Shown here: piece by piece, positions 13,375 to 62,764 of the stretch | Layout: every line of letters begins with the position of its first letter | How positions within the stretch are numbered: position 1 is the first letter of the stretch | Assembly: GCF_029227915.1 (NCBI RefSeq) | Contig: NC_079881.1 | Location: forward strand, 11,383,501 to 11,447,500 | DNA from: Hydractinia symbiolongicarpus | Lineage: Eukaryota > Cnidaria > Hydrozoa > Anthoathecata > Hydractiniidae | Direction of reading: 5' to 3' | Length of the DNA: 64,000 nucleotides | The notes under the pieces: model-generated | What the model saw: only the letters and a program-made list of their open reading frames with translations | The model's database searches: none | Told to the model about the DNA's origin: nothing | Program-made: the position numbers and the translations under genes

Positions 13375-13676
13375 TTTTAAAAATTGCTTACTTGAGCTGT
13401 CTCTGAATTTAAAATACCAAAGACAATACAATATATGAAAACCCGGGATTAAATTAAAATTTATGATCTAATTAATTTTTTTTGCTTGTGTGGCATTGCC
13501 TTAAAAACATTATGCATGATAGACAATATTCTTTGAAAACAGTCCTTGTTTAATTTTTGGTAGCCTAGTAAACTAAGCCCAAAATTCTCCCCTTTGATTT
13601 TTGGAAAAAGAAAATTAAACTAGGTAGACAGTATGTTCTGTATGGTGGCCGAGAACTGCTTTTTATTTAAATTCAT

Positions 13677-14921
13677 TTAAACTCACACATAAAAACTCAT
13701 CATTGTAGAGTACAGTTCTATTGCTGTAGATAGGACAAAAGTTACAAAACATTTATATATAGTAATAGCTGAAAATATATACAAGCATGAAATGAAAGTA
13801 GAACACATATATAATATAAGCAACAACAAAGCCAAGGTAAAACACATCTCTATATAATATTAATAAGCGTGAACAAAATATATATATACATAGCATAGCT
13901 CACAACGTAAAATATGTGAAAACATAGAGGTATATATAATAGCAGCAGGGAGGGAGGAGGAAGAAAAACTGCTAGAACTGAAAAGGAAAACCATGAGGCA
14001 ACTGCAGCTTAAATACTAGCAAGACTGCTGACCAAAAAATATGCTGCTGACCAGAAAAGGCACATAGGTAAATGGTGAACTAACTATGGGCAATACAAAC
14101 CAGAGTACTGTAGGAAGAAGATCTATATATGTGTGCATTTAAACACTCATAAATATATATTTATGAGTCACTTAAACTCACACATAAAAACTCATCATTG
14201 TAGAGTACAGTTCTATTGCTGTAGATAGGACAAAAGTTACAAAACATTTATATATAGTAATAGCTGAAAATATATACAAGCATGAAATGAAAGTAGAACA
14301 CATATATAATATAAGCAACAACAAAGCCAAGGTAATAACACATCTCTATATAATATTAATAAGCGTGAACAAAATATATATATACATAGCATAGCTCACA
14401 ACGTAAAATATGTGAAAACATAGAGGTATATATAATAGCAGCAGGGAGGGAGGAGGAAGAAAAACTGCTAGAACTGAAAAGGAAAACCATGAGGCAACTG
14501 CAGCTTAAATACTAGCAAGACTGCTGACCAAAAAATATGCTGCTGACCAGAAAAGGCACATAGGTAAATGGTGAACTAACTATGGGCAATACAAACCAGA
14601 GTACTGTAGGAAGAAGATCTATATATGTGTGCATTTAAACACTCATAAATATATATTTATGAGTCACTTAAACTCACACATAAAAACTCATCATTGTAGA
14701 GTACAGTTCTATTGCTGTAGATAGGACAAAAGTTACAAAACATTTATATATAGTAATAGCTGAAAATATATACAAGCATGAAATGAAAGTAGAACACATA
14801 TATAATATAAGCAACAACAAAGCCAAGGTAATAACACATCTCTATATAATATTAATAAGCGTGAACAAAATATATATATACATAGCATAGCTCACAACGT
14901 AAAATATGTGAAAACATAGAG
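13677..14921 (-). repeat. Split direct repeats: two full ~495-bp units plus a 254-bp partial unit
   Basis: Units start with TTAAACTCACACATAAAAAC at 13677, 14172 and 14668. The first two run about 495-496 bp. The third stops after 254 bp at CATAGAG, where the element body begins. The second half of the unit (AAGAAAAACTGCTAG to GAGTCACT) reappears alone at 20101-20312. The copies are nearly identical; for example, copy 1 reads AAAACACATC where copy 2 reads AATAACACATC. Near-identity implies a recent insertion. Confidence 0.93.
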
Positions 14922-14966: not shown

Positions 14967-16038
14967 TCATGCAAGGTGTGATGCCATAAGTCGTTGGGCA
15001 GAAAACCGCTGAGCAAGGGGCATGTGAAGGTAAAGAAACATACTATCAGATTTCCAGTCCCCCAATAAGGATATGACATCCAGAGGAACGCCTGCCTCTA
15101 AAGCAAAGGTGCCCCCCCCACGGCGAAACGAGTGGGTACCATATTGGGAGGTAGAACACCCTAACTCTGTCAACACTTTTTTCATAACGGACATGAAAGT
15201 CCGATATGTCAATATAGTGTTGGGTAGCATCGAGGATTTGCGCCAACAAAAGGCTTGAGCATCAGGCAGAACACCTGGAGTGAGAGAAAAAGCATGCAAA
15301 ATAGCCCGAACTGGACAAAGAGGAGAAGAAGGAATAGCCACCAGTGGAACAGTAATTGTGCGCTGTCCCAGTTGGATGGTCTTACTCCATCTAACTAGAA
15401 CGAGAATATGGTCATCATGAAAAGTAAAATCAGACCGAACTAGTTGTTTGAGGGGATTAAATATCGTAGAAGATGCCGGTAATAAATGTGACTTACGGAA
15501 CAGACCAAAAAATGAAACTAAACAAACAGCCCAAAATGAAGCATGAAAGCTACAATTTAGGTTAAGGCGAGAACGAATACCAAAAAGAAGAGCAGTGGTA
15601 ATAGGAAGACGTGGCTTGGCCGGAACACAAAGCATACGCTTCATACCTTTTAAAACTGTGGATTAGAGGATTAGCATATCCCATCTCAAGATGTAGAAGG
15701 CCAACAAAATTTAGATACATACAAACTGATTGTGGTAGTAAAAACCTAGCCAGATGGGCAATATATAGGCATAAAAAATCTGTGGAGGCAGGCACAAGTG
15801 GCGAAGACATCTGGCTACAAAAACATTCATAAGCCTTGCGATGCGTGCGATAGCTCTTTTTTGTATTCTCAGCATAGGTGGCCTGCCGAAAAAGGACAAC
15901 GTCGTGCACCAACTCCGAAACGAAGGGGGGCAACTCTAGAGGAAGGAGAATACAAAAATTAGCTACCACAGATGGTATACTTACCAATGAGAAAATAATA
16001 AGAATAGGCAGACATATGATTGATGGCAACCATATCAC
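14967..16038 (-). pseudogene. Tyrosine recombinase of the DIRS-order element (frameshifted)
   Basis: This replaces an integrase: it recombines the circular cDNA into the target. The N-terminal SAM-like part is at 16038-15645 (VHDVVLFRQATYAENTKKSY). The catalytic part is at 15644-14967, with FFGLFRKS (first Arg), RWSKTIQ (Lys), GTHSFRRGGG (His-x-x-Arg), GDWKSDSMFLYL (Trp and nucleophile Tyr) and a stop after RLMASHLA. The two parts are in different frames. The break falls at a run of four A's near 15650, and one A fewer would make the frame continuous. All catalytic residues survive. The start given is only where the open frame begins; no firm initiation codon can be assigned. Confidence 0.85.
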
Positions 16039-16737
16039 AGACTGAAGTCAGTAAGTTGAGCTGCAAAAAGTGCAAAAATGATAATAAGTGTTGTCTTGAA
16101 TGAAGACGTGATATGTCGTCAGCAAGGACATTCTGAGCACCAGCTACATGGAAAGCCTTCAAACGAAAATTGAAGGTAGCCGATAACCAAAACAACTGAC
16201 GTAAATAGTCCATCATAACAGGGTGATGGGTAGTTCCTTTATTAAGCATAGCAACAGCAGCAGTATTATCGCAGAAGACATGGATAGTTTTGTTCTGCCA
16301 AGTGGGAGCCCAGCGAATAGCAGAAAGAACTACACACAGGGCTTCCTTAAAATTAATATGCAAAGAGGCAAGAGGGGAATGGTCTACCCTTAGATGAGAA
16401 TAGAACCAATCACTCTCAAAAAACAGCGTCAGAGCAAGCATCAGTTTGCAGACTGGTAATAGGTCTTTGGTCATAGAAATCGCATTGTCCATTAAACACA
16501 CCCAAGAACTGATCCCACCAAGCTATATCCCTGTGAAATTCGAGCGTCAAGCGACACTTCGAGGCAGAGGAAGACAAGGTGTTCATCAGATCCAGGACAC
16601 GTCTCAAGAACGTTCTACCACCATACACGACTTTACAAGCCCAATTTAGGCGACCAGCAAGACGTTGCAACTCTTTCTTAGAGGCTCTCTGCTTGGTTAA
16701 AAAATGTGACACTACTTCCCTCAATGCATCCAGTTTA

Positions 16738-17740
16738 GGGGTCGTCTACAAATTTCGTATGATATTTTATACGAATATATACGAATTTAATTGCTTTTAA
16801 TTCGTATAAAAATCGTATACAATTCGTATAGTGTTAAATAGTTATACGATTTTTAAAAAATCTAATACGAATTTTATACGATTTTCATACGAATTGTCAT
16901 ACGAATTATATTCTCTTTTATACGATTTTCATACGAATTTTCATACAAATTATATTCTCTTTCATACGAATTGTCATTCGAATTATATTCTCTTTTATAC
17001 GAATTTTCATACGAATTATATTTCGTTTTTAAACTTTTAAAAATGCGATCTAAAAAAAACATTTCTATCGCCGTTTTTCGTTTTTCAACTTTTAACATGC
17101 GATCTAAAAAAACATTTCTATCGCCGTTTTTCGTTTTTCAACTTTTAAAAATGCGATCTAAAAAAACATTTCTATCGCCGTTTTTCGTTTTTCAACTTTT
17201 AACATGCAATCTAAAAAAACATTTCTATCGCCGTTTTTCGTTTTTAAAACTTTTAAAAATGCGATCTAAAAAAACATTTCTATCGCCGTTTTTCGTTTTT
17301 CAACTTTTAAAAATGCGATCTAAAAAAACATTTCTATCGCCGTTTTTCGTTTTTAAACTTTTAAAATGCGATCTAAAAAATATTTTATTTTGAAACTCAT
17401 ATACGAATTTAATACAATGTCAAACGATTTTCTTTTTTTTAAAACCATACGCATCTAATTAAAATCTCATACGAATTTTTTGTTAAACTCGTACGAATTT
17501 AACTCATACGAATTTAATTTAAAACTTATACGAATTTAATTTAAAACTCATACGAATTTAATTTAAAACTCATACGAATTTAATTTAAAACTCATACGAA
17601 TTTAATTAAAAACTCATACGAATTTTATACGAATTTAGAAAAATTTCATACGAATTTAATTACTGTATGGCAAAAGAAAATTCGTATAGTATATACGAAT
17701 TTTTTTGATACGAATTGCTACGAATTTTGTAGATGACCCC
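16738..17740. mobile_element. PIF/Harbinger-like non-autonomous DNA transposon inside RT
   Basis: A 1003-bp insertion with terminal inverted repeats: GGGGTCGTCTACAAATTTCG on the left against the reverse complement of TTTTGTAGATGACCCC on the right. It is flanked by a 3-bp direct duplication TTA (16735-16737 and 17741-17743). GGG-type termini with a TTA/TWA target duplication fit the PIF/Harbinger superfamily. The interior is satellite-like: TACGAATTT motifs on both sides and a minisatellite in the middle. No transposase is present. Removing the insert and one TTA restores the RT frame, so it landed in an RT that was intact at that point. Confidence 0.8.
17041..17390. repeat. ~50-60-bp minisatellite within the Harbinger-like element
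   Basis: Six to seven tandem copies of a unit containing ATGCGATCTAAAAAAACATT, TCTATCGCCGTTTTTCG and TTTTTCAACTTTTAA, with small length differences. It is flanked by TACGAATTT-rich arrays (16745-17030 and 17395-17730). It generates a spurious MRSKKTFLSPFFVFQLL repeat frame on the plus strand. Confidence 0.85.
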
Positions 17741-18582
17741 TTAGCAGGTGGAAGAGAAAGGGTAAGTGACACAGTGTCAAGCAGAATTCCAAGAAAAGTA
17801 AGTTGCTGGCATGGAGGGACCAACTTAGCAGGGCTAAGCTGAAACCCTAGTGCAACAAGTAATTTACAGAGTGTGTTATAGGCCTCATAACATTCAGTCT
17901 GTGTTCGGCCAATAACAAGAAAATCATCTAGGTAGACAATAACGAGAGGAAAACCTCGTGTTAGCATCATACGACGAACAGATTGTGTAAGGCGATGAAA
18001 TATTCCAGGAACACTTCGACCTCCAAAAGGAAGTCGAGTATCGACAAGATATGAGTATCGAGTGCTTCCAGAAAACCGCCATTTTAGACCAAGCGCAGCA
18101 TAGTTTGATGGATGAACAGGTACTGACCGATATGCATGGCGTAAATCAACCTTGGCCATAAAATATCCCTGTTTGATCATAGCACAGGCATCATCGATAG
18201 TTTGAAATTTTTGTTTTTCAATATCAATGTATGTATTGACACCCTTTCCAACTGGCATGGAACAGTCATGTATAATGCGTAACTCGTCAGAGTCAGGTTT
18301 GGGGACAGCCCCAAGAGCACTGACAATGGTAGGTTTACATTGAGTAAGAACATAGTTACCAGTTTTAAGTTCATCCAGCAGAGTAGCTTCTACTTTCATA
18401 TGAGCTGTAGGACTGGTAACAGAAAAGTAGTTATTCATTTCGGCAGGCAATAAATCAGAGTCCTTAGGAAGAAGCTGAAAACCACAGTGAATTCCATTAA
18501 GGAGGAAGTCACGATCTGGGTCTTCAGCCAGTTCATTGGTCCATAAGTCAACATTAAGAGGAGTGCGAAATTCTGAGGGTAG

Positions 18583-20020
18583 TCAATTGTCAGAATTGTG
18601 GTTTTGTCCAGAATGAGGTTTGCCACAAGCCTGATTACCAATTTTGCGGTTGCAGACGTGGGTGAATTTACATTCTGTTTTCTGGCAACCTTTTTGGCGG
18701 TTAAAATTACGACAGATTTCCACACCGGAAGAAGTATGTGTAGGAAACCCTGAAGACGATCCTGAGGCAGGTGAACCTGAATTTCCCTTACTTAAGGTAC
18801 TGGAAGGGTTACAGACAGGAGGGGAGGCCCAACGAGGTATAAGCATCACTTCATGCAAATGGCTATTGTCAAAGCTCCATGGATAGCCATAAGTGTGCTG
18901 AAGAATTCGATATTCATCGTCATACTTTAGCACAGACTCCCAGGTGTACTTTCTAGCCAACTCTAAGATCTTAATGGAATAAGACAAATAGTCACGTAAA
19001 TCGGACGAGGTTGGCAATCTGGCAGAAGACAATAATTCATAAAAAATTCTCAAATTAGCTATGTTATATTGTTCCATGGAAAGAGATTCCAGTCTTGGCT
19101 TCTTATTTCCAATGGCCAACATTAGCGTAGTTTGTAAACCAGGATCAGTAGAAATAACTTTCTCCTGCTCCACAGGACGAAGCCGAGACACAAAATCGAC
19201 TATACGAAGTGGCTTACCATTTCCAGTGTTTGAAGAAAGTGCCAGGGCGCAGAAACAATTCTGAACTACGGTCTTCTTGCTGGCGAAAAACATCCGATAG
19301 GGAGCGTGTTTGTTGTTGTGACAAGACAGTTCGATTGGTCAACAAATTGGCGGACTGTTGCGGAGCAAGCAAGGAAGCAAAACAAGATGGCGGTTGTACG
19401 TCAAGGGGTGAAGGGCGGAGATTGTCTTGGACACGATTGGTTGGATTTACAGTTTGCTGCAACGGGGAAGTGCTTAAAATTTGTGCTGGGCAATCATTTC
19501 TGGAAGAAGCTGAGCGAAGCCTAGCTAATTCTGATTGTCGAGCAGCAATCTGATTGAGAAGGTGTTGCTCTTCTGTTTGTAAACTTTCCCTTAGGGATAG
19601 CTCTTCCTGTTCTAAGACAGCCAGCTGATTACGAAGAGCAGCTAGCTGAGACGGTGAAGAAGATTTGTTTGGGTTGTTTAGGTGAGACTGCAGAGGCGAA
19701 GATCTTTGGATTGAAGACATTGGGTTATTAGCGATAGTTGAGGAAAGTGCTGAAGCAGCTGATGTGACAGTGTTGGTAGCGCTAGAACGACGACCTGGAC
19801 AGTGACGACTGGGAATACCAAAGTCGTGTAGAGCCAGAAGTGCCTTGCAGCCAGGACATTTTGGGATACGTTTCTTTTTGAGTGTGGACGATTCCTCAAG
19901 AGCGACAGACATTGCAGCAGATTGGAAGGTTTGAGAAGTTGAATCTTCATCTTCTGAGCCATCTGGCGTTTGAGTAGGTGAGATAAAATATAACAGCATC
20001 CATATAGGTGATAAATACAT
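18583..20020 (-). pseudogene. Gag-like ORF of the DIRS-order element
   Basis: The first frame (20020-19214) encodes a Ser-rich region, a CPGC...HCPG cluster (about residues 54-74) and a Leu/Glu/Gln coiled-coil stretch (LRNQLAVLEQEELSLRESLQ). The second frame (to 18583) begins around 19290-19240 with GNGKPLRIVDFVSRLRP. It ends with a Cys/His cluster of CCCH appearance (CRNFNRQKGCQKTECKFTH), then PHSGQNHNSDN and TGA. Crossing from one frame to the other needs a shift near 19250. Function as a nucleocapsid protein is inferred from position and zinc-binding motifs; no sequence family was recognised with certainty. Confidence 0.7.
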
Positions 20021-20100
20021 GTTTAATTAGCCAAAGATTGGTTTGATTGCAAATTGATTGATTAGATTTAAGTGGATTAATAAGCAGCAGACATAAGCAT

Positions 20101-36900: not shown

Positions 36901-39900
36901 CGAGACTGAAATGAAAAATGGGGTATCTTATAAAAAATGTGGAACGTTTGCTTAGAGTCACTATCTCTAAATGGCACCTTAATCCACCTACAAATGAGGA
37001 ACTAATTAGAAAAGAAGAGACCAAGCAAAGAATATGCGTGTGGATAGAGGTTTAATAATTGACTGAAGGAAAAGGATATTTAAGTCATAAAAATGTTTAT
37101 TTTTTCTTATTGATTTATTTATTTATATACAAACAAGTAAAGCGAAGGAGGAAGCTATGTTGTTAACAAAGACAAGTCGACAACGTCTAGAATTAGAAAA
37201 ACTCGCCAACTTTCAAAAGGTATAACTTGATTTTATCTTACAACGGGTTTTTAGGAGTACCTCACCTTACTTTGCTTTTAAAAAAATGCTCGACATATAC
37301 TGGCGACTGGTCTCTCTCCATCTGTTAAACACGTAATCTGCATATGAAGCTTCTTTTTAGCTGTTACAAAACCTTGGCCTTCCCCATTTAAGTGATAGCT
37401 CCTAATTACTTTGACATAGTGTTCTGTCAAATTTTTATTAAGACTTTTTGAGAAGTACAGGAAAGAACTGTTACCAATCCTAATATTTGATATTCTCTCG
37501 CTCTTTTATCTTTTTCATTTGCATATACTTATTTTTAGATTCCAATCCGATTTCAGTTTCCGGATAAAACGGTGTTGCAAGCATTTTTTCGTCCGTTGGA
37601 AACAGGTATTACTCGTGATTGCGTACTGTTGTACTATGCGCTTCTTTACAACACTGGTAGAGAATTTGAATTTGCACACCCTTTCAAAACCTTTCCATCT
37701 TTTTTTCTATTTTAGTTAAAAGCGTAGATGAATTCCTTTTGGAATATTTATCGGATGAAATTAGAGTTTATGAAATATGTAAGATGTAATTTGCTGTTAT
37801 TTATTTGTTTTTCTTTATTTGTTTTTTACTTAAAGCTCGTTTCCATTTGACTTTTTTTTCCGCTAAAGCGCAAAAAGCTCATTCGTGCGCACTTTGATTT
37901 TGTCCAAGTGCGCATGTGCTCACAAGAAAAGCTCGTGAGCAAGTAGCAGTAGTGAAAAGCAGTAGCAGTAGTGAATTGGAAACGAGACTGTCAATCATTT
38001 TTTTTTTTATTGTTTGTGTTAGAAGTTTATATTTCTTTCATTCTTTTCAGTCACTACCCCTCCAAAATTCATTCTAAACGATCGCCAGCAGACTTTACAT
38101 AAGGTATCTACAGAATTATGTTAACAATAAAGTACTATTTCATGTTCTTTTATTTTTGAAATTTCGGATAGGAGTCAATTCTATCCGTGAAAGCATGTAA
38201 AAGAAGGCAAAAATCTAAGTGGCATTGATAGCTATAGAAAAATATGATTCGGATATAAAAATCTTGCTTCGCCAAAAATTTACGACGATGTTTTGCGTGT
38301 ATTCTCGGCCGTTGTATTCATCCCGCGAGTTTTCCGCGAACATAAAAATGAAACTTAAACTTATTAAAGAAATATTGTTTCATCAAACCCATTTTTTGTA
38401 TAAAAAGCTATTTTATTATACCTATCGTTGTTGCGCCCTAAACCGTATCAATCTAAAACAGGATTCGAAATTGCACTTCATGTTACGTAATGGAATTCGC
38501 CGAACCGTTACCAAGGCATTTTCCAATCTGAACCGTGTCAGATAATATGACGTCATGAAGGGAAACCAGTATAAAATAAATTTAACGTCATAAAAAATCA
38601 GTCTTCGCAAGATTTATGTCGCGCGCAAGACTTTCAAAGTGAATTCTAACTTTGATAAATTTTAAGTGAAACTTGAAGATATTATAAAATATAAAGTATG
38701 GATGATTTAGAAGTAGATGACGTTCGTTATCTGTTATACACCAAAGGATTTGTGGTGAAAGAACCGCAAGAAACAAAGCAGTTGAAAGCACGGTTATTTG
38801 AAATGGAAGAAGAGTGTGCAGAAAATGAAAACGAGAAAGAAAAACAGGTACTTGCATGCGCTAAAGAGAGAGACGAAATTCAAGATTATTTAGAGAAAGA
38901 ATGCATCGAGGTAGCCCGATCATACCGTTTGGAATGCCTGAAATTTGAACGATTAGAGAACCAGTTACGACTTCGTAATGCATGCAATAGAGGCTTCATG
39001 ACAGCCCTAAAAGCAAGAGAGAAGAGACTTATCGCATTGGATCAAAAGTTCAACGAGACAAAGCGAGCAACTGAGTTGTATAAGAAAGAAGTTTCTAGAT
39101 TACGCAAAAGTATTAAGAAGCTGCAGGATGGTACCAAAGGTGGTCGAAAGGAGGTGGTGAGTAAAAGAAGTGATGCAAAGAAAATTGGTACAACTCCAAA
39201 AGCAGTTAAGACTCAGAGTCCATTTAACAATGCTCATCCCATCCTGCCGCCTATCAAATCAAAACAAAACACAAGTTATTTTATCCCTAACTCACCACCG
39301 CCCACTAAAGATACCCTTCCACCGCCCACCAAAGACGCCCTCCCATTACTTCCTACCCCTCCAACATCAAGTAAGCCAGAAGCTCGATATGTGCGAAAAT
39401 TTCGAACACCATCGAGCAAGAAACCGCTACCACCAATTGGACAACAGAAAGAAGTTCTACTCCCTCTGAGAAAACGCTTGCCGTAAGCAGTAGACAAGCG
39501 TTAACTAGATAGAGAAGGCTGGAGGTGTGCTAGCCTATGGACCACGGAACAAATTCTTTCGCCTGCGGTTAAACGATTGGAATAAACATTGGAAGAATAA
39601 GTATAGCGGCAGATAGCTGTAAAAGGTATGCTAGCCCATGGATGACGGAATAAAGTCCTGTTGTCTTGGGTAAAACGATTGGAATAAACATTGGAAGAAT
39701 AAGTAGCTTCAGAAGATATATCTTCTGAAGCTACTTATTCATATATGGTAGCCCATGGATGACGAAAGGCCACCCTGGCTCGTCTAAAAAACGATCGCTA
39801 TAAGCAGTTGAGGAGCGGTTAGTAACAAGAGATGGGCGAGAAATGGAAATCCTGCCGCCTCCGAATAAATGATTACGACAAACAGCGGAAAAACATTGAT

Positions 39901-43319: not shown

Positions 43320-45113
43320 TTATTTTGATACATTATGATACTGCTCTTCGTCATCATCAAAAGACTGCTCAACATCTCCGTCATCTTCACCGTCGTCGTC
43401 ACCGTCGTCGTCTTCCAACTCGTCGACGTCATTTACGCCTTCTTCATCGTCAACGTCATCATTTTCCGTCTCTCCTTCTGGTTCCGCCTCTTCTTCATCA
43501 TCGCTATCAATAATGTCGTTATCAATACCGTCATCATTACCGCCATCAGTCATTTCTTCATCGTTATCGTCGCCATTGGGAGCTACTTCGTCGCTGTCGT
43601 CGACACTGTCCATTTCTTCTTCACCATCTTCATCGTCATTAACATCTTCTGTCAACTCTTCATCGCTATCGTGAACGTTTTTTATTGGCTCGATTAAGTC
43701 TTCGTCACTGTCATCCAACTCGTCTTCGTCATTAGCTTCAACGGCGTCGGATTTATCTAGAATGAAAGTTCTTATGAAACAACTATTTTCAATAAAGAAG
43801 AATATTGTCTAAAATCTTGGAACAATAAACTCCTCAAGAGAACAGAATAAAACTTTGAAACCTCAAACATCACTTAACTCTAGAACAAAATTTAGAGCGA
43901 AAGTACAGCGATTAGTTCAACCAACCTCGTCCCCAGGGCATCTTGTATCTAATGGCTGTCCCAGTGACAAAATGATACAACATGTCCAGGGGCGAGGTTG
44001 AGTTACCATCTACTAACAAAAGCTTAAGAAATACACTTCCTAACTTGAAAGACATTTCCTGAAAAATTATAGCTTTCTAACCCTTTTTTAAGCCTAAGAA
44101 ATTTTGACGACATTAATTTTTGAGTTTAATGCACATACCTAAAGATGTCACGTTTACACGAATCAATGTTTTGTTGTTCGTCCGAGGAAGAACAGCATAA
44201 CTAAAGAAGTTGTTTAGTTTAAGTGGTGAGACTGACGATTCTTTGATATCTAACGCAGAAAAAGTAATCGCCTTTGCAACTCCAGTGTTTAACTCTTCAT
44301 AATAAAATTGTCTCGATTGCCCAGCCGGAATTTCGAGTTCACTGGCGTCTGATTTTGACGGAACGATTGTGGCGTTAGTTTCTGCAAAATTTTGAAACAT
44401 AACATTAACAAATCGGAGTTCCTCTTTAACGGGGACTGTCGGTTTTCCACCGCCACCGCCAGTTTGTCCTCCGCCACCGCCAGTTTCGCCTCCACCACCG
44501 CCAGTTTGTCCTCCGCCACCGCCAGTTTCGCCACCGCCTCCGCCAGTTTCACCTCCAGTACCTCCACCTATTCCACCTTCAACAAGATAAATAGAATAAA
44601 ACATTAAATTTTAATCTCAACCTAGTTCCTAGGAAATTTTGCCTTCTGTGAAAACGAATTAAGGGGGAAAGGCCCTGGGAAAAATGATGTTCCCTTTCCA
44701 TTGCATGTTGTCTATAACTGAAAGTAAATAACAAATAAATACAAAATGCTTATCGAATAATGGAAAATGATGCTTCATAACTTTTTTCAGGGAAATAAAG
44801 AAGTCCTTGAAATCTCTTGTAACCAGCCTTGTTTCTAAGGTCTAACGGAGACAACTGACACATTGGGTACTAGGTTCTCTGGTAACAAGATGTATGGACA
44901 TGACGTATATGTGAGCAGACAGTTATTTTAATAATGTTTGAGTTAATTGCATGCTGGAATAATAACAGGGAGTTCATCTAACATTTGAGCATATATTTAA
45001 ACTTTGTAACGCCCAGTTGCCCCTCTGCCCCTCTTCCCCAACTCATTTTGTTTTGTAAAAAAATAACTTACCTTTCAATAACTCCCCTAATACTTTACCG
45101 ATCACCCGTCCGT
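43320..45113 (-). CDS. Gly-rich plus Asp/Glu-rich secreted-type exons (3' cassette, no own start found)
   Basis: Three exons in phase: 45113-45072 (GRVIGKVLGELLK, amphipathic), 44576-44139, 43756-43320 (TAG/TAA-type stop after QYHNVSK). The middle exon starts with about ten Gly-rich units (GGGGGETGGGGGQT) and then a folded-looking segment (LRFVNVMFQNFAETNATIVP to NNKTLIRVNVTSL) with N-glycosylation sequons. The last exon is about 145 residues of mostly Asp/Glu. No initiating exon was found between 45114 and 45731. The first exon needs one preceding base (intron phase 1), which is the phase left by the leader exons 47148-47061 and 46786-46730 of the cationic gene. So it may be an alternative 3' end of that gene or a separate gene whose first exon I missed. 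Function unknown. Confidence 0.7.
43922..44000. mobile_element. MITE of the CAACCTCGTCCCCAGGG family
   Basis: Begins CAACCTCGTCCCCAGGGCAT and ends CCAGGGGCGAGGTTG, inverted termini of about 17 bp enclosing 79 bp in all. It lies in the intron between the Gly-rich and acidic exons. Confidence 0.7.
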
Positions 45114-45275: not shown

Positions 45276-45524
<249 letters not shown>

Positions 45525-45731: not shown

Positions 45732-47768
45732 TCATTTTTTGAAATATTTATTAAAGGCAATCACAATTGTGCACTTACATTTTTTTAACCAACTTTTTTT
45801 GCTCGTTGTCGGTTTTTTCTTTAACCAAAACCCTTTTCGTTCCCCTCCTCTCTTTCTCTTCAGCCATTGTCTAAAACTTTTTCTTCTTATTCTTTTAAGA
45901 AAACTTCTTGTTTTACGAGTAATTTGCCTAAATTTGCGACCTATTCTTTTTCCGATCCGTCGTAAACGCGATCCAATTCTTCGAACCAATCGACGTATCG
46001 GTTTTCTTTTGATATATCGCCTAACCCGTCTAATCGCTCTTCGAATCGGTTTTCTTTTGATATATCGCCTAACCCGTCTAATCGCCCTTCGAATCGGTTT
46101 TCTTTTGATGTATCGCCTGACCCGTCGAAACGCCCTTCGAATCGGTTTTCTTTTGATGTATCGCCTGACCCGTCGAAACGCCCTTCGAATCGGTTTTCTT
46201 TTGATGTATCGCCTGACCCGTCTAATTGCTCTTCGAATCGGTTTTCTTTTGATGTATCGCCTGACCCGTCGAAACGCCCTTCGAATCGGTTTTCTTTTGA
46301 TGTATCGCCTGACACGTCGAAACGCCCTTCGGACTGGTTTTCTTCTGATGTATCGCCTAACCCGTCGAAACGCCCTTCGGATCGGTTTTCTTCTGATGTA
46401 TCGCCTAACCCGTCGAAATGCCCTTCGGATCGGTCTTCTTATAATGTATCGCCTAACCCCTCGGCGGAATCGTCTAAAACTACGCCTGATACCACGTCGA
46501 AAACTTCGAAAGCTACGCCGAAATCCACCTCGAAAGCCCCCTCGGCGTCCTCCAACTGAATAAATGCATACACAATTTATAAATTTAATATAGAAACTTG
46601 CAGCGAATTAGAAGCCTAACAAGTCCTAAAAACGAGGTTGGTAGCGAACAAGAACAGCCTTGCACTACTGCTTTTTTGTGGAAGGTAAAAAAAAGAAAAT
46701 AAAAATTGCGTGCTAAAGAATGCTCTTACACCACGGATCTGATTTTTCTGGTAACGCTTCCTCAATATCGCTGTTTTCTTCTTCATCTAAACAGATAATA
46801 AAACTTTAGAAGAAGAACGCACTTCTTATCTTACAATTTGTTTTTTTAAAGAACTCTTTTTAGAACTCTTAAAAGTGCGCTGACAGTTACTATTTTACAG
46901 CATTTATATTATCGAATTTTAAGTAATCTTGTTCCCAGAGCTTCTTTTTCGCTTTCTGGATATAGTACTTCTTTCGCGCAGCCACATTTTAGAAAGAGAA
47001 AAAAAGCCTTGGAAACGAGATTATTTTTTAGGTAAAAATTCACTTCAACAGAAAACTTACCTAGCAAAGGAACGAATTCCAAGGCATTCTCTTTTTCGCC
47101 AATTCTGTCTTTTAGATCTTCTATCTCCGCCAATGAATTTTCTACATCCTACATTAAAATGAAGTTAAACTTATTTTCACGATAACCTCGTTCCCACGAT
47201 CCCACCTTTTCCACATTGGGACGAAAACGCGTATTTCGCAATGAAAAAAAGGCAAGGGGATCCTGGAAATGAGGTTGTAAAAGTTTTCCACAGCAAGACA
47301 AATAACTCAAGATTATTCGTAGTGTCGGTTTGTGATGAAATTTACCAAAAAAAATTAAATGAACGTGCACGCTGAATGTCATATTGATGTTTAGATTTTT
47401 ACCCATGCTCTGACCGAATATTTAAACACCAAAGGAACTTCTATTTTAATTTATCATTTAATTCATTTTTTAGTTACTGCTAAAATGGTTCAAAGTATAA
47501 ACTTTCACCTATGTTTTTGTTGTTTCGCAAAAACGTTTCACAACAAAAAACTTCTAAGCCTATAACATACTATTTACACTGTAACACTGAACATTAATTC
47601 AACTATAAGTTGCTTGTGCAAAAAAAAGGTATATGTGGCAGAATATTTAATAAAACAAAATTATAGATGGAGTTGGAACACAAAAAAATTACTCACCGAA
47701 TTGTCGTTAAATGGTGCAGCTTCGATCATAAATATGAGAAGGGCGAAGAACGCAATCCTTCGCAACAT
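45732..47768 (-). CDS. Secreted polycationic Arg-repeat precursor, arminin-like antimicrobial peptide candidate
   Basis: Four exons, 346 residues: 47768-47697 (24-residue signal peptide MLRRIAFFALLIFMIEAAPF), 47148-47061 (leader, IEDLKDRIGEKENALEF), 46786-46730 (acidic DEEENSDIEEALPEKSDPW), 46555-45732 (TGA stop). Splice sites are GT-AG and phases 0/1/1 agree. The last exon starts with GGRRGGFRGGFRRSF, then ten near-identical 16-residue units RRAFRRVRRYIKRKPI (F or I at position 4). A further basic tail follows (RRIGSRLRRIGKRIGRKF, KSWLKKCKC). Signal peptide, acidic pro-part, then Arg-rich peptide after a Pro-Trp is the plan I know from Hydra arminins, whose active part also holds an RRAIRRVR core. 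Processing into several peptides is inferred. A structural, mucus or adhesive role is an alternative. Confidence 0.85.
45990..46470 (-). repeat. Ten 48-bp tandem coding repeats
   Basis: Units of 48 bp (16 codons) with the core (plus strand) CGGTTTTCTTTTGATGTATC+GCCTGACCCGTCGAAACGCC. Variants change F to I or K to R in the product. The unit length is a multiple of three and lacks stops in several frames, so three long frames exist here. Only the Arg-rich one fits the splice phase. Confidence 0.95.
47183..47276. mobile_element. MITE of the CAACCTCGT family in intron 1 of the cationic gene
   Basis: AACCTCGTTCCCACGATCCC on the left and GGATCCTGGAAATGAGGTT on the right, 94 bp in all. A further degenerate copy (CTTGTTCCCAGAGCTTC ... 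AAGCCTTGGAAACGAG) lies at about 46927-47020 in intron 2. Confidence 0.6.
47547..47627. repeat. 80-bp direct repeat, copy 1 (intron 1 of cationic gene)
   Basis: From AAAACTTCTAAGCCTATAAC to GTTGCTTGTGCAAAAAAA. It matches 48476-48555 with one substitution (AAGCC / AAGTC) and small A-run differences. The two copies bracket the signal-peptide exon. Confidence 0.9.
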
Positions 47769-48475
47769 GTCTGCGCTTGTTTCGTGAAACAAGCAAGACT
47801 GAAATGTTTTATTTTTGTTGGAGATTTTTATTTACAAAATCCTAATGACTTTTATTTATTTTCTCGAGATCTCCATGCTCTCGAACTCGGGGGTTATTAA
47901 CCGCATGTAATTGTGTATTTAATGTTGTCTTTTATAGCTGCGATGGAGACTGTGATGTTTGTCACATGATATTTAGCTATGACTTCCCAGAAAATCTAAT
48001 TAGAAAAAAAAGGAATTATGTTGTGGGGGGGGGGGGGGGGTAGGGTGACTTTAGTTAGGTGTCTCAAATCCATGGTTTGCCCGAGGGAAGATATTAAAAA
48101 ATAAGAACTTCTAGATTGCCAAAACAAATTGAAATCTAAATTTTTTTTCAACTTTTTAGATTTCTTTTACCAAAATTAGTGCTAAGTAAAAAAAAAGCAG
48201 CTAGAGATTGTTTCGGTAAATCTTTTAGAATTGATGGTACGTCCAAGTCAAAGGATAAGGACGACACAGCCAAATCGAAACGAATCAGCTAAAAGCGAAA
48301 CAAAGACCATTTTATTTCACTTTGATTTTTGTTAAGAATACAAAATATATCTTGAAAGTTGAAAGTAAAATGTGGTTTTGCTGATACGAACTGAAACTTT
48401 CACATGAAGCTAATTTAGAGAAAAAAATAATCCATTACAACCGCCAAAAGTTATTTGTTATATCAAGAATGGATT

Positions 48476-48555
48476 AAAACTTCTAAGTCTATAACATACT
48501 ATTTACACTGTAACACTGAACATTAATTCAACTATAAGTTGCTTGTGCAAAAAAA
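48476..48555. repeat. 80-bp direct repeat, copy 2 (upstream of cationic gene)
   Basis: Same sequence and orientation as 47547-47627, about 930 bp away and about 700 bp upstream of the signal-peptide start codon. It could be a small transposon or the trace of a local duplication that included the first exon. Confidence 0.9.
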
Positions 48556-51924: not shown

Positions 51925-62053
<10,129 letters not shown>

Positions 62054-62764
62054 GATTTTTACTATATCTTTTTGCTATTAAGTAAGCTATATATGCATAT
62101 AACAACCCTTCCTTAATCGATAAAAAGTGTACAATAACAAAAAAGCAACGTGAAGTGATAAACTCTTCTCAGCTCCACAGACCGCAGTGGCTATAGATGA
62201 AGCTGTGCTCCGAACGCCTTCCAAAATAGCCCAGCCCTTCTCAGCTTTTAATTGGTGGAATAGGCTAAATCACGTGACAAAACAAGAGCGTGGTCATACA
62301 CAAGATAAAATCATTAAATTGCCCATGTGAATTATGTGCTAGCAACAGCGCTATTTCTCGTATAAGTGCATCTTCTTACAAAAAAAATTAATTCCATTTT
62401 GTAAAAAATAAGTCAGAATTTTTCCCATTATTTAGGCCCTTCACTAGCTATAATAATGAAATATAACACAATGTAAACAAAATAATTTTAACTTAGTATA
62501 TGTGGTCTCGGGGTATTGCTGATATTGCAAACAGGGCGGAGCAGCTACGAGTTGCGACAATTGCTTAAAATTGTCCACACAAAGGCTTTAAATAATTTCT
62601 ACCTTTTGTATTTGTTTTGAAATTTGTCTGCAGTTTTGATCGAGATTGTTAACATTCCATTTTATGTTATTAAGTGAGTTTGTCCATGTTTCAAATTAAA
62701 GCAACTACATTTTCGGTCAAACCGGAATAGCCGTGCCTATTATAATAATATTACCATCATTTTA

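Follow-up and report, generated by a model that had tools for sequence, protein, structure and literature searches.

A predicted secreted block polyampholyte with an arginine-rich repeat array, tentatively a host-defence precursor, in the hydroid Hydractinia symbiolongicarpus

In a 64,000-nucleotide (nt) stretch of the Hydractinia symbiolongicarpus genome (assembly GCF_029227915.1, contig NC_079881.1, positions 11,383,501 to 11,447,500; hereafter the window, whose own numbering is used throughout) we found an apparently single-copy gene on the minus strand, predicted from a seven-exon model to encode a product of 636 amino acids (aa). On our best reading this product is a secreted block polyampholyte, composed of a signal peptide, an acidic pro-region, a block of arginine-rich units, a glycine-rich linker, a domain and an acidic tail. 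We tentatively regard it as a host-defence precursor that carries a masked polycation, a reading that we hold to be possible, if a little short of probable. The parts of the gene, in the order of transcription and with a microsatellite that lies in one of its introns, are as follows.

47697..47768, minus strand: exon 1, with the start codon, the signal-like stretch MLRRIAFFALLIFMIEA(A) and the first residues of the pro-region; donor GTGAGT, phase 0
47061..47148, minus strand: exon 2, acidic pro-region; donor GTAAGT, phase 1
46730..46786, minus strand: exon 3, acidic pro-region with Asp-Pro-Trp as its last residues; donor GTAAGA, phase 1
45779..46555, minus strand: exon 4, 777 nt, symmetric (phase 1-1), encoding a 259-residue Arg/Lys block
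45999..46478, minus strand: ten 48-nt units, one diverged (46478-46431) and nine near-identical (46430-45999)
45732..45778, minus strand: probable read-through into intron 4, opening with the donor GTAAGT and closing with an in-frame stop
45281..45520, plus strand: (TAA)80 microsatellite inside intron 4
45072..45113, minus strand: exon 5, 42 nt, symmetric (1-1), encoding YGRVIGKVLGELLK, a predicted helix of 14 residues; donor AAG/GTAAGT, score 11.5
44139..44576, minus strand: exon 6, Gly-rich linker (GGGGG[EQ]T repeats) and a domain of 102 residues
43320..43756, minus strand: exon 7, acidic tail of 145 residues and the stop codon

The Arg-rich array of exon 4 is a real coding array, beyond what chance would give. 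Tandem Repeats Finder (TRF) places a 48-nt array at 45997-46463 (9.7 copies, 93% matches), and the 16-residue units follow the consensus [IV]RRA[FI]RRVRRYI[KR]RKP, with Pro closing every unit and RVRR present in all nine of the near-identical ones. The first-pass annotation of this stretch had described ten near-identical units in one exon; the single-exon array stands, but the count was slightly high, one of the ten units being diverged. Since 48 is divisible by three, the repeat leaves several frames of the array open, and openness alone is weak proof of coding. Among the nine units, however, 8 of the 11 distinct differences are synonymous in the Arg frame and the other 3 are conservative. 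The ratio of nonsynonymous to synonymous differences in this frame (0.14) is the lowest of the six, the other five spanning 0.22-2.97 with the next lowest (0.22) antisense, and the synonymous excess is unlikely to have arisen by chance (p = 0.0024, in simulations with the same number of transitions). We rejected the antisense and shifted frames, some of which are open too, as their synonymous ratios are worse than that of the Arg frame. The basic pattern extends beyond the array itself, with 11 R among the 28 residues of its N-terminal flank and 32 R or K among the 70 of its C-terminal flank. In total the exon 4 block contains 102 R, 31 K and 1 E, for a net charge of +132; the earlier wording of well over 100 Arg is accordingly corrected to 102 Arg plus 31 Lys.

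Upstream of the array, the minus-strand chain of exons 1-3 is confirmed; it has GT/AG sites and is joined in phase to the Arg-rich exon starting at 46555, in agreement with the earlier description of a signal peptide and two acidic leader exons ending in Asp-Pro-Trp. The signal peptide was called by eye together with a hydrophobicity scan of ATG-led frames, in which exon 1 ranked 10 among the 709 frames scanned in the window. Residues 1-18 of the predicted protein are hydrophobic and residues 19-72 have a net charge of -15, which suggests a signal-like segment and then an acidic pro-region. The weakest link of the gene model is the exon 3 donor, GTAAGA, whose simple consensus score of 6.0 is the lowest among the six donors.

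Several other elements were seen in and beside this part of the gene. An acceptor-like TTTCAG (47799-47804, minus strand), noted by eye 30 nt 5' of the start codon, may mark an intron in the 5' untranslated region or a trans-splice acceptor. Two 80-nt direct copies, 929 nt apart and matching at 99%, lie in intron 1 (47547-47626) and upstream of the gene (48476-48555); a third copy is absent among the genome matches listed. Intron 2 carries a dispersed repeat (46907-47031) that is matched at 70-91% in at least dozens of places in the genome.

The gene very likely runs past exon 4, through exons 5-7, to a stop codon and a poly(A) signal. The donor AAT/GTAAGT at 45779/45778 is in phase 1 and has the highest simple consensus score in exon 4 (9.5). 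It stands about 45 nt before the apparent stop at 45732, and the chance expectation for a donor of the right phase in that gap is 0.005, as estimated from the density of such sites in the window (41 of the 6821 GT sites, both strands). The intron phases along the seven-exon chain are 0,1,1,1,1,1, and an AATAAA is found 158 nt 3' of the exon 7 stop. The C-terminus had previously been placed at the stop at 45732; this is very likely wrong, given the strong phase-1 donor upstream of it and the three in-phase exons that were missed. A model of four exons thereby lacks the polyanionic tail, in which 77 of the 145 residues are acidic (47 D and 30 E; net charge -74), and this alters the nature of the protein.

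It might be argued that these are two genes, with the Arg exon ending at its own stop at 45732 and exons 5-7 forming a separate gene downstream. That stop is in frame and is accompanied by an AATAAA starting about 21 nt before the frame end, and the frame of exon 6 (44113-44610) holds an in-frame ATG 5' of the acceptor. We nevertheless find two genes improbable: the top-scoring donor of exon 4 lies just before the stop in the correct phase, exons 5, 6 and 7 all carry on in phase 1, and the basic pattern is lost in the 15 residues past the donor. Nor does a convincing signal exon lie in the interval from the Arg exon to exon 6. A list of the twelve most hydrophobic ATG-led frames at 43-49 kb on the minus strand includes only one in that interval, at 44778, and by eye it has no GTRAG donor; the upstream ATG of exon 6 itself yields only a very short hydrophobic stretch.

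Charge is distributed along the predicted protein in large blocks, namely -15 in the pro-region, +132 in the Arg block, +2 in exon 5, -2 in exon 6 and -74 in the tail, with a sum of +43 without the signal. Long blocks of opposite charge in one chain (+132, -74), with secretion predicted, are a feature shared with cohesive or coacervating extracellular polyampholytes. Each unit is predicted to be a strongly amphipathic helix closed by Pro, its hydrophobic moment being 0.99 against 0.41 for permutations (p = 0.003). A single-sequence structural model of the Arg exon, of low confidence, shows helices that mostly span 11-14 residues and are interrupted close to prolines, and the array finishes in a single long helix; the mean predicted local distance difference test (pLDDT) score of the model is 56, and the score is less than 50 over much of the array. 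The pattern R-X-[KR]-R, a motif of the furin type, occurs at 12 places, and RVRR recurs in nine successive units. On weak evidence, a furin-type cut at RVRR would release 16-residue products starting with Tyr. The sequence supports the first-pass annotation in its description of a precursor that looks secreted, with an acidic pro-region ahead of a cationic block of many units; this block also looks membrane-active.

The domain encoded by exon 6 resembles little in the databases searched. It has no Pfam match, one NCBIfam match (E 0.043), no PDB sequence better than E 0.023 and no relative in viral or bacterial contigs. Foldseek gave 547 matches at E <= 10, none of which reached E <= 0.001; the pLDDT of the single-sequence AlphaFold2 (AF2) model of the domain is 57.7. 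Pfam did assign the Arg block to the family T2SSF, above the family cut-off (E 8.4e-7 and 1.6e-7), and we rejected this assignment as compositional, four stretches of the block passing alone. At the gathering thresholds of Rfam there was no match in the window.

The gene is apparently single-copy. Whole-genome searches covered 76 contigs totalling 480,894,487 bases; the window belongs to contig 7. The exon 6 domain has one match genome-wide. The Arg exon has at least 202, of which its own scores 442 bits and the next 39.5 bits (147 of the 778 candidates scored). Of the weaker matches to this exon, six loci were inspected; only one passed an Arg/Lys filter, and it is a frame of a QTDR microsatellite. 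No second leader, Arg block, domain or tail was found at E <= 1 within 100 kb on either side (20 of 20 stretches of 10 kb); the flanks gave three chance-level matches at E <= 10, the best at 5.7, and the window, serving as positive control, was matched. Matches in IMG/VR fell at three loci, and the one translated (L001) is a low-complexity RKPPRNPS repeat.

We also searched for relatives among proteins. A 346-aa truncated form of the product, compared with 5.8 billion proteins, met none at E <= 1 among 7994 scored candidates of about 190-605 aa. A query of the leader plus an arminin peptide returned only two arminins (2 of 5 candidates, 57-180 aa). One of the leader plus dehydratase matched 7238 proteins, and the 120 listed (149-474 aa) all have a dehydratase domain, a list below which any relative of the leader would be invisible. 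The result for the truncated query could be taken to mean that this is not a working gene, being instead an unexpressed array flanked by chance splice sites, or a misassembled satellite. We consider this very unlikely: the full-length protein falls outside the length range of that search, the array occupies one place in a chromosome-scale assembly, and the synonymous excess, the seven in-phase exons with GT/AG sites and the poly(A) signal all speak for a functional gene.

The first-pass annotation had proposed an arminin-like precursor, a repeat-expanded relative of the arminins of Hydra. We compared the gene with Hydra arminin 1a (P0001) and arminin 1c (P0002), each of 88 aa, and kinship with the arminins is not supported. 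An exact 8-residue run, RRAIRRVR, is shared with arminin 1a, at a frequency of 0.0002 in plain shuffles and 0.00025 in unit permutations. This frequency rises to 0.0095 in a null that preserves the amphipathic pattern, and the longest run shared with arminin 1c is only 4 residues. Alignment of the Arg block with the mature peptide of arminin 1a scores 38, a value reached by 414 of 2000 arminin shuffles; the unit alone scores 37, which 302 of 2000 unit permutations also reach, as do 492 of 2000 permutations that keep the pattern. Unit and block thus both align within composition- or pattern-matched nulls (p 0.15-0.25).

For the leader, between 106 and 210 of 2000 shuffles attained the local scores (42 against 1a, 40 against 1c), which are borderline (p 0.05-0.11); global scores (18 and 16) were reached by 1170 and 1320 of 2000 (p 0.59-0.66). 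Pairwise BLASTP against the arminins gave E values of 0.32 to 1.3. A profile built from the two arminins aligned 7 columns with our leader at 1.6% probability (P-value 0.031). Within the reach of a profile of two sequences, the leader thus shows no relationship to arminin pro-regions, a point on which the earlier proposal had been staked. Arminin 1a searched against the whole genome had 12 weak matches, the best at E 0.08, and none at this gene. By the same moment measure as was applied to the units, moreover, the core of arminin 1a is not alpha-amphipathic (0.38-0.48, p 0.40-0.49). After BLASTP, shuffles, run tests, profile and genome search, what is left in favour of homology is the layout, a borderline local leader score and one run. 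The order of the parts is indeed alike, and Pro-Trp stands at the boundary between acidic and basic parts in both; we still judge it very improbable that the gene is a true but highly diverged, repeat-expanded member of the Hydra arminin family. The precursor layout is arminin-like, but membership is unsupported, which agrees with the available text of PMC10945409, where the AMP (antimicrobial peptide) families of Hydra are reported to have no homologues in Hydractinia or Clytia.

The likeness to Hydra arminins is therefore one of plan: signal peptide, acidic pro-region, cationic part, Pro-Trp boundary and, in 1a only, the 8-residue run. A signal followed by an acidic pro-region is found here as in the arminins, and this layout is common to many AMPs; a charge-bipartite precursor is, in the portions of PMC10945409 at hand, the reported layout of most Hydra AMPs. 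The differences are considerable. Arminins are 88 aa long with one cationic part whose core is not alpha-amphipathic, and they lack an array, a Gly linker and an acidic tail, whereas the Hydractinia product has 636 aa, ten units and such a tail. Arminin 1a is charge-balanced (-13 in the pro-region, +12 in the mature peptide), while the Hydractinia block far exceeds its pro-region and the acidic tail partly restores the balance. Hydra arminins are described in the same text as clustered paralogues confined to Hydra (PMC10945409), in contrast to a Hydractinia gene with no second copy within 100 kb.

Precedents for a multi-unit precursor are found in insects. Several near-identical units, and secretion inferred from the signal-like exon, are what would be expected of a multi-unit AMP precursor. 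Baramicin A of Drosophila, a case of tandem-repeat AMPs released by furin, likewise combines tandem peptide units and furin sites in a single secreted precursor; it is an insect protein with three IM10-like repeats and other domains, and is likened here by its description only, as given in part of PMC9246212. The precursors of ant hymenoptaecin and bee apidaecin also have a signal, a pro-sequence and near-identical units with RR sites, and 23 units have been deduced in one ant (PMC3415428, in the text available). They differ in having EAEP spacers and, in hymenoptaecin, units of 97 aa (as described in the same part of PMC3415428), whereas the Hydractinia chain has no acidic spacers and carries acid at both of its ends. 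The AMP1-4 proteins of Trichoplax, called arminin-like for their layout, share an acidic N-terminal and a basic C-terminal part; again likened by description only, they run to about 150-250 aa and carry a C-terminal Gly for amidation, and no array is described in the accessible part of PMC12013895.

We prefer to read the product as a host-defence precursor because of the amphipathic, Pro-closed units and the insect precedents for multi-unit AMPs. In this model the acidic pro-region and tail, -89 together, would mask the +132 block within the secretory pathway. Once the protein is secreted, or once a furin-type enzyme cuts at the RVRR present in nine of the ten units, numerous cationic helices, each some 16 residues long, or else a single long polycation would become exposed; the exposed cations could then bind and disrupt bacterial membranes. 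Exon 4 could be skipped without breaking the frame, since it is 777 nt long and symmetric (1-1), and skipping it would give an acidic form without the polycation. A bolder version, which we think unlikely, sees a lineage-specific, self-neutralised defence polyprotein outside Hydra. Here about ten amphipathic Arg peptides would sit in a skippable cassette exon, the C-terminal polyanion would keep them inert until cleavage, and by splicing the colony could make either a cationic form that kills or an acidic one that does no harm.

Several points weigh against a role in host defence. At -74, the tail goes well beyond the size of ordinary pro-segments, and a structural role would fit it too. Any chain rich in Arg can be expected to contain furin-like motifs such as the RVRR seen in nine units, and with dibasic sites this closely packed the units might be cut to pieces by convertases. 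The score of the exon 3 donor (6.0) is below the 7.5 that decoy sites within the repeats reach on the same crude scale. No relative was found either; the absence of relatives is not established, because a full relative of 636 aa lies outside all three of the length ranges searched.

With so large an acidic tail, the main rival is a cohesive or adhesive polyampholyte, a chain that stays uncleaved and condenses, either with itself or with other polyanions such as mucins and chitin, to form a gel, a glue or the matrix of a capsule in the colony. The large blocks of opposite charge in one chain, the Gly-rich linker and the long tandem array are consistent with such a material. The conserved, strongly amphipathic hydrophobic face of the units would be needless in a simple polycation, and no paper on an Arg-repeat, acid-tailed secreted hydrozoan protein was found in the open-licence PMC literature; we hold the structural role to be the less likely of the two, though worth serious attention. 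The words 'antimicrobial', 'immune', 'arginine' and 'adhesive' are absent from the main text of the Hydractinia cell atlas (PMC11876637), and 'antimicrobial' and 'arginine' from that of the Hydractinia genome paper (PMC11067881). Between defence and a cohesive or adhesive role, no evidence here favours either decisively.

The rest of the window contains other genes and repeats. A serine-dehydratase-like gene (PF00291; 21992-22960, plus strand) is open over 322 residues in one frame and is 63% identical to its Hydra vulgaris counterpart. Its protein is 97% identical to one assembly protein, with which it grouped in a tree of 23 rows (100/100); the Hydra vulgaris row and the sister of that row stand separately, and the wider group is weakly supported (80/78). 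Retroelement pieces lie at 14967-20026 on the minus strand: 17656-18582 encodes a reverse transcriptase (PF00078), and at 14967-15662 there is a recombinase-like frame whose PF00589 match is below the cut-off of that family, an arrangement reminiscent of DIRS-type elements. Nearby are a tandem repeat at 13673-14921 (496-nt period, 2.5 copies, 99% matches) and a cluster of tandem arrays at 16865-17660 around ATACGAATT and a 54/107-nt unit. A myosin heavy chain gene (52351-62074, minus strand) has its Myosin_head (PF00063) in the frame 57877-58956 and coiled-coil-like rod frames downstream. An aconitase exon (PF00330; 1863-2384, plus strand) is located near the left end of the window, and an open frame of 263 residues (38695-39486, plus strand), coiled-coil-like by eye, matches no Pfam family at E <= 0.001.

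The AMPs of Hydra are described as genus-restricted in the available text of PMC10945409, and a secreted multi-unit cationic gene in Hydractinia would be a candidate for the antimicrobial arsenal of colonial hydrozoans. Its product may supply peptides that kill microbes in bulk quantity, or may itself be a sticky charged material. Should the structural role prove true, a chain with such large blocks of opposite charge would be interesting as a material. Hydractinia is a laboratory model hydroid, so the gene is directly testable.

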